Assembly (NCBI RefSeq): GCF_030540775.2
Contig: NZ_CP141266.1
Span: 1,289,001 to 1,353,000, forward strand
Reading direction: 5' to 3'
DNA from: Flavivirga abyssicola
GTDB taxonomy: Bacteria; Bacteroidota; Bacteroidia; Flavobacteriales; Flavobacteriaceae
DNA length: 64,000 nucleotides
The position numbers and the translations under genes are program-made. Shown here in pieces: positions 16,419 to 40,543 of this stretch; positions within the stretch are counted from its first letter, which is position 1; each line of letters opens with the position of its first letter. The notes below the pieces were generated by a model. It was not told the origin of the DNA and did not search any database. It saw only the letters and a program-made list of their open reading frames with translations.

Positions 16419-19400
16419 TTACCCAACAATATTGACTATTTTTCCTGGAACAACAATCACTTTTTTAGGTTCGCGCCCTTGTAATTGTTCTTTTGTTTTT
16501 TCGTGTTCTAGAACTGTCTTTTCTATATCGTCTTTGCTCATATCTAATGGTAACTCTAATGTAAAACGCATTTTTCCATTAAATGAAATCGGGTAATTTT
16601 TACTGCTTTCTACTAAATGACTACCGTCAAATTTTGGAAAGCCTGCCGTTGAAATAGATTCATTATGTCCTAGCTTGTTCCATAATTCTTCTGAAATATG
16701 TGGTGCATAAGGCGAAATTAAAACCAACAATGGTTCAAGCACCTCTTTACTTGTGCATTTTTGAGACGTTAATTCATTAACTGCTATCATAAAAGTAGAA
16801 ACTGATGTATTGAATGAGAAATTCTCAATATCTTCCTCTACTTTTTTTATGGTTTTATGTAGTGTTTTAAGAGCCTCCCCTAACCCCTCCGAAGGCGGGG
16901 AACTCGTTACATAAAAGCTTCCATTTTCTCCTTGATGGTATAGTTTCCAAAGTTTTTTCAGGAATGAATGTACTCCAGTAATCCCTGCCGTATTCCATGG
17001 TTTGTATTGCTCTAAAGGTCCTAAGAACATTTCGTAAAGGCGTAAACTGTCTGCACCGTAATCAATACATATTTGGTCTGGATTAACCACGTTGTATTTA
17101 GATTTGGACATTTTTTCTACGTCACGACCTACTTTGTAAACCCCATCTTCAAGAATGAATTCTGCATCTTTAAATTCTTCTCTCCAATTTTTAAATGCCT
17201 CTATATCCAATTCATCAGAACTATTTACAAAAGATACATCTGAATGAATTGGTTGTACTTTGTTTTCTCCTATTAGCCCTTTCGAGATAAATTTATTCTC
17301 ACCTTCAACACGATACACAAAAGCACTCGTCCCCAAAATCATCCCCTGATTAATAAGTTTTTTTGCATACTCATCAACAGGTACAACACCTTTATCAAAT
17401 AAGAATTTTTGCCAAAAACGAGAATATAATAAATGTCCTGTAGCATGTTCACTTCCTCCTATATATAAATCGACATCCTGCCAATAATCCAAGGCTTCTT
17501 TAGAAGCCATTTCGTTATCATTCGTAGGATCCATATATCTGTTAAAATAAAAGGAACTTCCTGCCCAACCTGGCATGGTGTTTAACTCTAAAGCCCCACC
17601 TAACCTCCCCGAAGGGGAGGAATTCTCAAACTCTTCTTTGGATACGATGTCTGCTTTATCCCCATATTGTAACCAATACCATTTTTTAGCGTTTCCTAAT
17701 GGCGGTTCGCCTGTTTCGGTTGGTAAATATTTTTCAACTTCTGGTAATTTAATTGGTAAATGCTCTTTAGCAATCATTTGTGGCATTCCATTCACATAAT
17801 ACACAGGGAATGGTTCACCCCAATAACGTTGTCTGCTAAATACGGCATCACGTAATCTGTAATTAGTTTTTCCTTCACCTTGCCCTAATTGTTCCAATTC
17901 AAAAATAACACGTTTGGTTGCTTTTTTATAGTTCATGCCGTTAATGAAATCACTATTGGCTATGATAGTTTTTTCTTTATCAGCAAACGCTTCTTCAGAA
18001 ATATCCACACCTTCAAAAATATTTGGAATCGGAATATTAAAATGCTTTGCAAAATCGTAATCACGTTGGTCCCCGCATGGCACCGACATCACCGCTCCTG
18101 TACCATAGCCAGCTAATACGTAATCACCAATCCAAATAGGGATAGGTTCTTTTGTGAATGGATGTTCTGCATAAGCTCCTGTAAATACTCCCGAAATGGT
18201 TTTAACATCCGCCATTCTATCACGCTCACTACGTTTTGCAGTTGCTAGAATATAAGCATCAACGGCTTCCTTTTGCTCTGGGGTTGTTATTTGTGATACT
18301 AGTTCGTGTTCTGGTGCTAAGGTCATGAACGAGACTCCGAAAATGGTGTCAGGACGGGTTGTGAAGACTTCAATCCCCCTAGCCCCCAAAGGGGGAACTT
18401 TCTCACTCTTGATTGATGCTCTTTGATTTAATTCTTCTCGAATAGTTTTAAGAACACTTTCAATATTGCTCAAAACGTCTTCGTTTGTAAATCGAATAAC
18501 TTTATAGTTATCATTTTCAAGAATTTCTGTTCGTTTAGCATCTTCTTCTACTTGAGACTCATGAATTTTTCCGTCAACTTCAACAATCAACTTTTTATCT
18601 AAGCAAACAAAATCAACAATATAATCACCAATCAAATGTTGTTGCCGAAACTTAGCCTCCAGTTTTTTTCCTCTCAAGCTACCCCACAATGCTGCTTCAG
18701 CTTGCGTAGGATTTGCACGCATTTCTTTAGCTCTTTCAAGAAGTAAATGCGAATTATTTCCACCCGTCATATACCCAGGCCGTTTTTCAGAGCCTGCTTT
18801 CCCTTCCCCTCCGGGGAAGGATAGGATGGGGAATATTACAGATGCTCCAACCGATTTCCCTATCCAATTACGCTGGCTTTCCTTTAAAGAATCTGTCCAA
18901 TCAATCGTATCCAACCCTTGAAGTAAGCGTTCTGCATAGGCAGAAATACGCATACTCCATTGTGTCATTTTTTTACGAATAACAGGATGTCCGCCACGTT
19001 CTGAAACGCCATTTACAATTTCATCATTTGCCAAAACAGTTCCCAATGCAGGGCACCAGTTTACTTCTGTTTCAGCTAAATATGTTAATCTGTATTGTAA
19101 TAGTATTTTTTGTTGTTCCTTTGATGAAAATCCGTGCCATTCATCAGCAGAAAATGCTTCAATATCATCATCACAAACGGCATTCACATTGGTGTTACCT
19201 TCCGCTTCAAAAATGGCAACTAAGTTTGAGATGTCTTCAGCTTTGTTAGTCGTATTATTAAACCACGATTCGAATAATTGAATAAAAATCCATTGCGTCC
19301 ATTTGTAATAACTCGGGTCTGATGTTCTAACCTCACGAGACCAATCAAACGAAAAACCTATTTGGTCTAACTGTCTACGATATGTTTTTATATTTTCAGC

Positions 19401-19700
19401 AGTTGTTATTGCTGGATGTTGTCCGGTTTGAATAGCATATTGTTCAGCTGGCAAACCAAAACTATCATATCCTTGTGGGTGTAATACATTAAACCCTTTA
19501 TGACGTTTATAACGTGCATAAATATCTGAGGCAATATACCCTAATGGATGCCCTACGTGTAAACCTGCACCACTTGGATAAGGAAACATATCCAAAACAT
19601 AATATTTTGGTTTTTCGCTATTGTTAACAGCTTTAAACGTCTGGTTTTCTGCCCAATACTTTTGCCATTTGGCTTCTATCTCGTTGAAATTATATTTCAT
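16419..19700 (-). CDS. leuS: Leucyl-tRNA synthetase carrying an in-frame DUF559 nuclease insertion
   Basis: It charges tRNA-Leu. The class I motifs HVGH (48-51) and KMSKS (863-867) are intact, as are TTRPDTIFG (447-455) and the GTGAVMSVPCGDQRDYDF segment of the CP1 editing domain. The protein has 1093 residues; I expect about 930-950 for relatives. The excess is mainly residues 291-442, a foreign segment between GASVIF and IEVFTTRP that contains a complete DUF559 nuclease domain. Two shorter palindrome-encoded peptides lie at about 693-703 (SSPSGRLGGA) and 933-943 (SSPPSEGLGEA). The frame is open throughout, and every catalytic motif I checked is kept, so the enzyme should be functional. DUF302 and SemiSWEET genes follow closely. 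Confidence 0.96.
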   Translation of the reverse strand: MKYNFNEIEAKWQKYWAENQTFKAVNNSEKPKYYVLDMFPYPSGAGLHVGHPLGYIASDIYARYKRHKGFNVLHPQGYDSFGLPAEQYAIQTGQHPAITTAENIKTYRRQLDQIGFSFDWSREVRTSDPSYYKWTQWIFIQLFESWFNNTTNKAEDISNLVAIFEAEGNTNVNAVCDDDIEAFSADEWHGFSSKEQQKILLQYRLTYLAETEVNWCPALGTVLANDEIVNGVSERGGHPVIRKKMTQWSMRISAYAERLLQGLDTIDWTDSLKESQRNWIGKSVGASVIFPILSFPGGEGKAGSEKRPGYMTGGNNSHLLLERAKEMRANPTQAEAALWGSLRGKKLEAKFRQQHLIGDYIVDFVCLDKKLIVEVDGKIHESQVEEDAKRTEILENDNYKVIRFTNEDVLSNIESVLKTIREELNQRASIKSEKVPPLGARGIEVFTTRPDTIFGVSFMTLAPEHELVSQITTPEQKEAVDAYILATAKRSERDRMADVKTISGVFTGAYAEHPFTKEPIPIWIGDYVLAGYGTGAVMSVPCGDQRDYDFAKHFNIPIPNIFEGVDISEEAFADKEKTIIANSDFINGMNYKKATKRVIFELEQLGQGEGKTNYRLRDAVFSRQRYWGEPFPVYYVNGMPQMIAKEHLPIKLPEVEKYLPTETGEPPLGNAKKWYWLQYGDKADIVSKEEFENSSPSGRLGGALELNTMPGWAGSSFYFNRYMDPTNDNEMASKEALDYWQDVDLYIGGSEHATGHLLYSRFWQKFLFDKGVVPVDEYAKKLINQGMILGTSAFVYRVEGENKFISKGLIGENKVQPIHSDVSFVNSSDELDIEAFKNWREEFKDAEFILEDGVYKVGRDVEKMSKSKYNVVNPDQICIDYGADSLRLYEMFLGPLEQYKPWNTAGITGVHSFLKKLWKLYHQGENGSFYVTSSPPSEGLGEALKTLHKTIKKVEEDIENFSFNTSVSTFMIAVNELTSQKCTSKEVLEPLLVLISPYAPHISEELWNKLGHNESISTAGFPKFDGSHLVESSKNYPISFNGKMRFTLELPLDMSKDDIEKTVLEHEKTKEQLQGREPKKVIVVPGKIVNIVG
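16871..16905 (-). repeat. Palindromic repeat, TTAGGGG type, inside leuS (solo copy)
   Basis: On the minus strand the core reads AGTTCCCCGCCTTCGGAGGG and then GTTAGGGGAGG. It encodes SSPPSEGLGEA in the leucyl-tRNA synthetase frame, in the region before the anticodon-binding helices. The same family and orientation occur at 17591-17625 and at the 3' border of the DUF559 insert. Confidence 0.8.
17591..17625 (-). repeat. Palindromic repeat, TTAGGGG type, inside leuS (second solo copy)
   Basis: The minus strand reads ATTCCTCCCCTTCGGGGAGG and then TTAGGTGGGGCT. It encodes SSPSGRLGGA directly before the conserved ALELNTMPGWAGSSFY of the catalytic domain. CCTCCCC and GGGGAGG form a 7-bp stem with a TTC loop. 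Confidence 0.82.
18372..18836 (-). mobile_element. DUF559 nuclease unit bracketed by palindromic repeats, inserted in leuS
   Basis: This segment encodes about residues 291-442 of the leuS product. Its 5' border (18802-18834) has a perfect 8-bp stem, CCTTCCCC-TCC-GGGGAAGG, preceded in the reading direction by CCCCATCCTATCC. Its 3' border (18372-18398) is AGTTCCCCCTTTGGGGGCTA then GGGGG. Between them lies a DUF559 domain with the PTQAEAALWGSLR helix, the PD-(D/E)XK-like strand pair GDYIVDFVC...KLIVEVDGKIH (D363, E374, D376 in fused numbering) and the terminal VIRFTNEDV. An internal ATG at 18768-18770 could start a free-standing nuclease. No intein splicing motifs are seen. Mobility is inferred from the borders and the location. 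Confidence 0.78.
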
Positions 19701-36950: not shown

Positions 36951-36980
36951 CCCCTCTTACATCTCCCCTAAGGGGAGAAA
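36951..36980 (+). repeat. Palindromic repeat, CCCCATC type, upstream of the YkoF-like gene
   Basis: TCTCCCC-TAA-GGGGAGA (36962-36978) forms a 7-bp stem, preceded by CCCCTCTTACA. It resembles the 5' border of the DUF559 unit in leuS but lies on the opposite strand. It sits immediately upstream of the YkoF-like start codon. Confidence 0.65.
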
Positions 36981-40006: not shown

Positions 40007-40483
40007 ATGTCCTACGAATACAAAAAAATAAAAGTCCCCAGATTCGATGAAGCATCTGGTTTTTATACCACAAAGAAACGCTCTAAAATGATGAGCAAAA
40101 TTCGTGGTAAAAATACCAAGCCAGAAATGCGTTTTCGTAAAGCGCTTTGGAAAAAAGGTGTTCGATACAGAGTGGATAGTAAACAACTTCCAGGCCGGCC
40201 GGATGTAAGTATAAAAAAATATAAGCTTGCTATTTTTATCGATGGCGAATATTGGCATGGTTATAACTGGTATGAACGTAAGAAAAAGCTAAAGACAAAT
40301 CGTGATTTCTGGATACCTAAGATCGAAAGGAATATACAACGAGACAAAGAAGTCAATCAACAATTAGAAAATATGGGTTATACCATATTTCGATTTTGGG
40401 CAAACGAAATAAAAACCAATCTAAAAACTTGTATTAACGATGTTATGGTATATTTAGATATCGAAAGGTTCAAAATTAGTTAA
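40007..40483 (+). CDS. vsr: Very short patch repair endonuclease (Vsr)
   Basis: Vsr nicks next to T:G mismatches formed by deamination of 5-methylcytosine. The 158-residue protein has the family order KRSKMMSKIRGKNTKPEMRFRKALW, KQLPGRPDVSIKKYKLAIFIDGEYWHGYNW (with the catalytic Asp and His) and the final GYTIFRFWANEI. Vsr genes usually sit beside a C5 cytosine methyltransferase, but none is present here. A decayed second copy lies at 46657-47036. Confidence 0.93.
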   Translation: MSYEYKKIKVPRFDEASGFYTTKKRSKMMSKIRGKNTKPEMRFRKALWKKGVRYRVDSKQLPGRPDVSIKKYKLAIFIDGEYWHGYNWYERKKKLKTNRDFWIPKIERNIQRDKEVNQQLENMGYTIFRFWANEIKTNLKTCINDVMVYLDIERFKIS

Positions 40484-40543
40484 AAAATAAAGTTCTCGCT
40501 TTGCTTATAACTAATTAAGTCAACCTATTAGAGTCATCTAAAA

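Follow-up and report, generated by a model that had tools for sequence, protein, structure and literature searches.

The leuS gene of the window studied here, a 64,000-nucleotide (nt) stretch of the Flavivirga abyssicola genome (contig NZ_CP141266.1, positions 1,289,001 to 1,353,000), raises the question of how a complete nuclease domain of the DUF559 family came to be translated inside an essential tRNA synthetase, between two short palindromes. The reading that accounts best for the data, with a probability of roughly 0.6, is that the insert is a mobile, frame-keeping element, bracketed by palindromes, which encodes a nuclease of the Vsr/EDxHD fold, spreads in a homing-like manner and is translated in its host without splicing. 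At the level of sequence, this reading draws on the embedding of the domain, its palindromic borders, the many host genes, a series of filled, empty and footprint alleles, identical tracts specific to the insert, a conserved active site and the fold of a homing nuclease. The features of the locus are listed below (LeuRS, leucyl-tRNA synthetase; REP, repetitive extragenic palindrome).

16419-19700, minus strand: host gene leuS (leucyl-tRNA synthetase), a single frame open through the insert, 1093 amino acids.
18369-18836, minus strand: whole inserted element, in frame, between ...GKSVGASV and IEVFTTRPDT; the site is empty in 6 of 12 genomes of the genus.
18802-18831, minus strand: REP-like palindrome of the 5' border; in coding orientation a CCCCATCCTAT head, then the hairpin CCTTCCCCGGAGGGGAAGG with arms CCTTCCCC/GGGGAAGG.
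18429-18737, minus strand: DUF559 (PF04480) nuclease domain, LeuRS residues 322-424.
18573-18614, minus strand: active-site segment with D363, E374 and D376, invariant in 21 LeuRS rows; these are D75, E86 and D88 in 31 DUF559 rows, also invariant.
18375-18397, minus strand: REP-like palindrome of the 3' border, hairpin CCCCCTTTGGGGG (CCCCC-TTT-GGGGG) followed by a CTAGGGGG tail, inverted relative to the 5' border.

The leuS product scored 894 bits against TIGR00396, the bacterial leucine-tRNA ligase family (cut-off 548.4), and the PF04480 profile matched with 117.8 bits in the full LeuRS and 122.3 bits in the insert segment alone (cut-off 20.6), which bears out the original prediction, made from the DNA letters, of a complete DUF559 domain in frame in this essential gene. 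The insert occupies a variable loop of the editing domain, between WIGKSVGASV and IEVFTTRPDT, that usually comprises fewer than 20 codons in empty relatives. Across 21 aligned filled LeuRS proteins, the others being 54-95% identical to that of the window, the synthetase motifs HVGH and KMSK and the DUF559 residues D363, E374 and D376 are all invariant; the acidic residues and the retention of the catalytic motifs had both been correctly recognised beforehand. Since the source genome contained one LeuRS-length match among the matches listed, the filled leuS is presumably its functional LeuRS gene. Elsewhere in leuS, the stretch following GTSAF (site C; L288-L295) is strongly variable in length in relatives, the distance between GTSAF and the following motif ranging over 51-139 residues.

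LeuRS is predicted to retain the insert, with no splicing. Pfam and NCBIfam scans of LeuRS at E 0.001 revealed no intein (Hint) splicing families, as had been anticipated, and the intein reading was ruled out on this ground. DUF559 is the sole domain encoded: the Pfam scan detected no transposase domain in the insert and no other Pfam domain in the 156-residue segment, no search aimed at DNA-binding modules having been made. The original prediction had also allowed for separate synthesis of the nuclease from an internal ATG near position 18770. This codon exists (18768-18770, in 'GYM'), but it is not conserved, the corresponding peptide being GYL in several leuS copies and GYQ in ileS, and a separate DUF559 product is therefore unlikely.

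Both borders consist of a GC-rich hairpin with an unpaired outer TAGG..GGGG tail, and they are mutually inverted. Palindromic borders had been correctly seen from the start, but their assignment to two different repeat types does not hold, as they belong to one palindrome type in inverted orientation. Two lone palindromes of this general kind are translated elsewhere in the same gene.

17594-17621, minus strand: lone in-frame REP-like palindrome, site B, 'SSPSGRLGGA'.
16873-16900, minus strand: lone in-frame REP-like palindrome, site D, 'SSPPSEGLGEA', variable within the genus.

Near site B, other Bacteroidota leuS genes (L232, L236, L240) contain a whole DUF559 insert. In all, leuS holds four REP-like palindromes translated in frame, two at the insert and two lone, which is above chance and exceptional: a 400-kb sample of the genome contained 61 GC-rich hairpins by one rule, five of them with CCCC/GGGG, and one of these five had a REP-like tail by eye, the rule catching three of the four leuS palindromes and missing the 3' border with its 5-bp arms. 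The leuS border palindrome was not found dispersed in high copy number in the source genome, and this possibility was ruled out. Outside leuS, a REP-like hairpin TCTCCCCTAAGGGGAGA with a CCCCTCTTACA flank is located at 36962-36978, the sole pyrimidine/purine-arm hairpin outside this gene among the 15 listed for the window.

If the insert is a mobile unit, as originally proposed, DUF559 domains with palindromic borders should occur in other host genes, and they are present in frame in many. A search with the leuS insert, covering the best 80 of 108 named loci, found leuS filled at the same loop in 62 of the 80 returned loci (60 flagged by script, with L080 and L095 added by reading). The other in-frame hosts from this search were ileS (three genomes), recG (five), metH (two) and hsdM (two), together with one C-terminal fusion to hisD. 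DUF559 was detected in 222 of the 395 Bacteroidota genomes surveyed and in 2 of 14 control genomes; frames of 839-1484 residues accounted for 37 among the 150 matches listed, one of which (G101) resembles a chance frame. The survey loci that were fetched added further embedded hosts, namely a second leuS site, hsdR, restriction-modification enzymes of the Eco57I type and Type ISP, UvrD-type helicases and methylmalonyl-CoA mutase; fusions at a terminus involved hemF, hemD, a hisF-type gene and RNase H. Pfam confirmed at least one example per host type, in an uninterrupted frame; L191 had no Pfam host match, and L194/L253, L212 and L226, likely chance frames in GC-rich genomes, were kept in the border counts and are not claimed as hosts. 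The peptides adjoining DUF559 are translated palindromes, e.g. 'LSPTLSEGKG', 'PPSGARG', 'VLPLGKDLGW' and 'SPSPQGEG'. One hsdR frame with DUF559 (L222, 2775-6791, plus strand) also encodes a GIY-YIG nuclease domain (residues 251-316, E 1.6e-14), perhaps a second, different nuclease insertion. Two near-identical stand-alone DUF559 genes in tandem in genome G004 (L138, 2986-3354 and 3551-3919) suggest a recent duplication.

Borders were counted as palindromes with pyrimidine/purine arms (6+6, one mismatch) within 130 nt on each side of DUF559. This test was written because an earlier one, accepting hairpins with any GC-rich arms (two-sided in 44 of 113 cases vs 1.5% of controls, and in 42 of 63 vs 7.5% in the survey), missed many visible borders. 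In the first set, palindromes stood on both sides in 48 of 67 copies of the leuS set, 11 of 13 in other hosts and 24 of 28 stand-alone copies, compared with 4 of 3622 random control positions in the same loci; the leuS loci are homologous and hence not independent, and the group of 67 includes one stand-alone copy (the second match in L099) and counts L095 twice. The Bacteroidota survey yielded two-sided palindromes in 46 of 63 loci vs 0.3% of 2715 control positions, and a tighter code, with controls run for the first set only, found them in 35 of the 49 embedded copies of the survey and in 9 of the 14 stand-alone ones. Further loci, 23 of them belonging to the same class as the Rhizobiaceae genome G451 (Alphaproteobacteria), two Spirochaete and one cyanobacterial, were two-sided in 16 of 26 cases vs 13 of 1010 controls (1.3%), with the flank widened from 130 to 150 nt equally for loci and controls. 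Excluding L301, L302 and L306, which are refetched first-set loci, the count is 13 of 23, and these new loci are the cleanest check of a test that was devised after viewing the first set. Inside the DUF559 domain such palindromes are nearly absent (2/67, 0/13, 0/28, 1/49, 0/14 and 0/26).

In the survey, base frequencies are C 0.43 and G 0.13 outside the 5' palindrome and C 0.16 and G 0.41 outside the 3' palindrome, the pattern expected of inverted copies; the full C-out/G-out orientation was seen in 20 of the 46 two-sided loci, the rest being mixed or unclear. The palindrome tails seen are often TAGG-like in Bacteroidota and different in the alphaproteobacterial loci (REP-associated tyrosine transposases, RAYTs, and their REP doublets, REPINs, go with a GTAG or CGTC tag beside the hairpin). 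The original prediction had tied its mobile unit to flanked DUF559 copies elsewhere, and these carry the same general palindrome kind, with sequences that differ between genomes.

The nuclease itself is well preserved: the D...ExD motif is present in 105 of 108 first-set copies, the exceptions being two incomplete stretches and one decayed in-frame copy (L019), and in 58 of 63 survey copies, where four read E-F-D, outside the pattern, and one E-L-E. The decayed copy lies in the leuS loop of genome G013 (L019/L298), in which the frame is open, the second catalytic D and the H are lost and border palindromes were not seen. A profile of 31 DUF559 copies matched PDB entry 3hrl at E 2.8e-31 and 3r3p, the homing endonuclease I-Bth0305I, at E 3.9e-6. 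The same two entries were the best Foldseek matches of the predicted DUF559 domain (predicted local distance difference test, pLDDT, 67.8), at E 6.7e-6 and E 1.9e-4, ahead of weaker matches to mitoribosomal proteins (E ~1e-3) and Vsr (E 0.11). The insert nuclease is related to I-Bth0305I by sequence and fold. In the available text of the two papers concerned, a DUF559 gene is placed in the EDxHD family (PMC9403480) and I-Bth0305I is listed among homing endonucleases of group I introns (PMC3943268). The window also contains an open reading frame at about 40007-40485 (plus strand) that reads as a classical Vsr mismatch endonuclease, a name given by reading, with a weak DUF559 match (24.7 bits); no such palindromes were present in the stretch examined at this locus (L004).

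The alternative that survives best, though an unlikely one, is that DUF559 is a passenger, the palindromes being moved by other machinery or by short-repeat recombination while the nuclease serves repair, as Vsr does, or defence. Caulobacter VsrA, a DUF559 protein, is indeed described as Vsr-like in the available part of PMC12907096, and palindromes without DUF559 occur at the same sites in ileS of G006 and G042 and at leuS sites B and D. In G006 (L261) the ileS site of DUF559 holds a different double-palindrome element ('GSRQPELVPGSHDEAPKQVRND') without a nuclease, and this loop is a hotspot shared by different palindrome families. However, two-sided palindromes accompany DUF559 in Bacteroidota and beyond, and no other enzyme that tracks them was seen. 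The source genome has four Y1-transposase (RAYT-type) loci; three had no palindrome in the stretch examined and one had a single palindrome about 640 bases away. With no adjacent palindromes at these Y1_Tnp loci, RAYT was ruled out as the mover. Next to L003, a stand-alone DUF559 gene of the source genome, lies a palindrome that, searched as a 23-mer with up to 3 mismatches, has six copies in this genome vs no control matches, three of them at the L003 gene and two others in enzyme-less inverted doublets (L338, L339). Copies at an enzyme gene and in enzyme-less doublets are the kind of pattern that tied REPINs to RAYTs. Around position 1501 of L338 and L339, the doublets share similar sequence on both sides and are possibly part of a longer repeat.

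Less probable still, and already weakened, is an ancient fusion, by which DUF559 would have entered leuS and each of the other genes once and then been inherited vertically with many losses. The distribution within the genus bears on this explanation, and 12 genomes (G000-G011, the source genome included) were compared. The leuS loop is filled in G000, G004, G006, G007, G008 and G009 and empty in G001, G002, G003, G005, G010 and G011, and on a LeuRS tree of 84 rows from wider taxa, computed with the insert left out, the 63 filled and 21 empty genes require 13 presence/absence changes, 11 of them forced by well-supported branches, although such counts cannot separate gain from loss. These results support the mobile unit of the original prediction, which would be at odds with a segment carried by all close relatives; six of the 12 genomes are empty here.

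At ileS, the unit of DUF559 between two REP-like palindromes is present in G002, G003 and G008, and the loop 'NADLIDKGTT' is intact or nearly so in eight genomes, against what a single ancient entry would lead one to expect. The filled G008 and the clean G000 differ by only 3-7% at the nucleotide level, and by 7-26% at fourfold sites along the gene, whereas G008 and G002, both filled, differ beside the site by 11-12% and 37-42%, respectively. A filled and a clean allele in so near a pair point to recent gain or recent replacement at the site in one of them. At recG, the site is empty in G001, G007 and G011 and filled in G003, G004, G005 and G009, as well as in G017, which belongs to another genus; G002 has lost the nuclease and has its two borders joined, while G000, G006, G008 and G010 retain the 5' border and a few leftover codons. 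Some in-frame palindromes are therefore footprints of a lost nuclease.

Vertical inheritance is also disfavoured by identical tracts specific to the insert in otherwise diverged leuS genes, and by the number of hosts in which borders of this kind recur. In the pair L053/L054, the longest identical run (297 nt; the next is 54 nt) begins in DUF559 and ends at its 3' border; L067/L071 likewise has a 297-nt run (next 91 nt), and L043/L046 has a run of 137 nt in DUF559, with the next (42 nt) also in DUF559 and the longest outside it 35 nt. At fourfold sites L043/L046 differ in 5 of 34 positions in DUF559 vs 145 of 309 in LeuRS (p=0.00017), and the same comparison gave p=0.00085 for L066/L074, 0.0029 for L046/L049, 0.01 for L053/L054 and 0.041 for L067/L071, the pairs with least DUF559 divergence having been examined first and the p-values being uncorrected for this choice. 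On the DUF559 tree, which has few alignment columns and 48 of 103 forks unresolved, the host labels recG, ileS, metH and hsdM change once each and leuS four times (65 rows), and all labels together require 8 changes vs a shuffled mean of 37.2. DUF559 copies thus cluster by host gene, which means that, like homing elements, they spread at a given site more often than they reach a new gene.

A third explanation, that DUF559 is an accessory domain kept for its benefit to the host enzyme or the cell, e.g. as a defence sensor in LeuRS, is very improbable, since for all the conserved active site and the restriction enzymes among the hosts, half of the genus lacks the leuS insert, the host enzymes are unrelated to each other and the decayed copy L019 persists in frame.

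The favoured mobile, homing-like element would enter loops of large proteins at a frame-keeping length and, because this length keeps the reading frame, would be translated as an internal domain of a host enzyme that still works. The nuclease, supplied by the host protein or by a stand-alone gene, may then cut an unoccupied allele or a palindrome, and the break would be repaired by copying from an occupied copy. Later the insert may decay or be deleted in frame, and the palindromes would remain as footprints.

Apart from the choice of pairs mentioned above, several observations weigh against this reading, and some of them suit an ancient fusion. The leuS copies mostly cluster, as the four changes in 65 rows indicate, and host-specific clades imply that jumps to new genes are rare. 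In two leuS comparisons, L039/L040 (p 0.6) and the window with L039 (p 0.95), insert and gene are equally diverged, which fits plain descent. The recG insert is likewise as diverged, and thus as old, as its flanks, and the recG footprints are clear losses, not gains. No target-site duplication was seen by eye at the recG and ileS empty/filled pairs, where a few host codons are replaced, and no shared target motif was seen by eye at the empty sites in leuS, recG and ileS. The 5' border sequence is single-copy in the source genome (one exact copy), and 173 of the 395 Bacteroidota genomes have no DUF559. The two-sided border test was negative for 19 of the 67 leuS-set loci, for 14 of the 49 embedded ones in the survey and for 10 of the 26 further ones, and the metH hosts L208 and L219 have no palindrome on either side by this test. 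The full-length LeuRS model is poor (predicted template modelling score 0.34), with DUF559 at pLDDT ~66-85 between two linkers below 50, and placing the domain relative to LeuRS from this model was dropped as a result. Finally, we infer that DUF559 cuts DNA, as the original prediction also did, what it would cut, and that cutting drives the spread.

A more far-reaching proposal is put forward tentatively, with the odds somewhat against it. DUF559 nucleases may be the partners that mobilise a class of REP-like palindromes spread across bacteria, a nuclease counterpart of RAYT; the palindrome-nuclease-palindrome unit would then be a new class of mobile element, either stand-alone or in frame, leaving lone protein-coding palindromes on loss of the nuclease.

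If the favoured reading is true, a palindrome-bracketed nuclease that spreads via a living host protein would join three subjects: the palindromes in frame in bacterial proteins, the origin of many REP-type repeats and what DUF559 does. It would also show how selfish elements can settle in essential genes without splicing, and provide a source from which new internal protein domains arise. As filled, empty and footprint alleles exist within one genus at leuS, ileS and recG, the idea is directly testable. In the literature searched, which covers few subscription journals or preprints, neither a paper linking DUF559 to palindromic repeats nor a description of such a system was found, in agreement with the original prediction; 'DUF559' and 'palindromic' co-occur in PMC8861277 and PMC9454445, the titles of which concern CRISPR/quorum sensing and NAD metabolism. 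The data suggest an undescribed mobile element that survives by leaving its host protein unbroken.

Among known systems, inteins place a nuclease in frame within essential genes, at sites that are conserved. The leuS element shares with them the in-frame nuclease in an essential gene; unlike them, it has palindrome borders in variable loops, no splicing domain was found in the LeuRS scans, and the protein is expected to keep the insert. A reading as an insertion sequence (IS) or transposon finds neither the transposase domain nor, by eye in recG and ileS, a target duplication. REP/REPIN sequences with RAYT (TnpA-REP), treated in part in PMC3733652, are short palindromes with an unpaired tail that form inverted pairs around the enzyme gene. 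The tailed palindromes, the inverted pair around an enzyme gene and the enzyme-less doublets elsewhere in the genome are common to both systems, whereas here a DUF559 nuclease takes the place of the Y1/HUH transposase, and in-frame insertion inside proteins is common. Rickettsia palindromic elements (RPE) are described in PMC3733652 as palindromes in frame in protein genes, including those for tRNA synthetases and repair; RPE and other in-frame REPs share with this leuS, which has four, the translation of the palindrome, but the available text of that paper mentions no nuclease domain between the palindromes, and here some lone palindromes are footprints of nuclease inserts (recG).

EDxHD homing endonucleases, according to the available text of PMC3943268, have separate DNA-binding modules giving a long target. 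The nuclease sequence and fold, the clades specific to host genes, the patchy presence per site and the exchange between alleles are shared with them; the differences are that no intron or intein is involved here, and that the unit is translated in the host protein and bracketed by inverted palindromes. For the function that marks a homing endonuclease, cutting an allele without the element and so driving its copying, the patchy alleles and exchange tracts are indirect signs only. The element thus lacks a defining feature of inteins, of RAYT/REPIN and of IS elements, and is related to the EDxHD homing endonuclease I-Bth0305I in sequence and fold.

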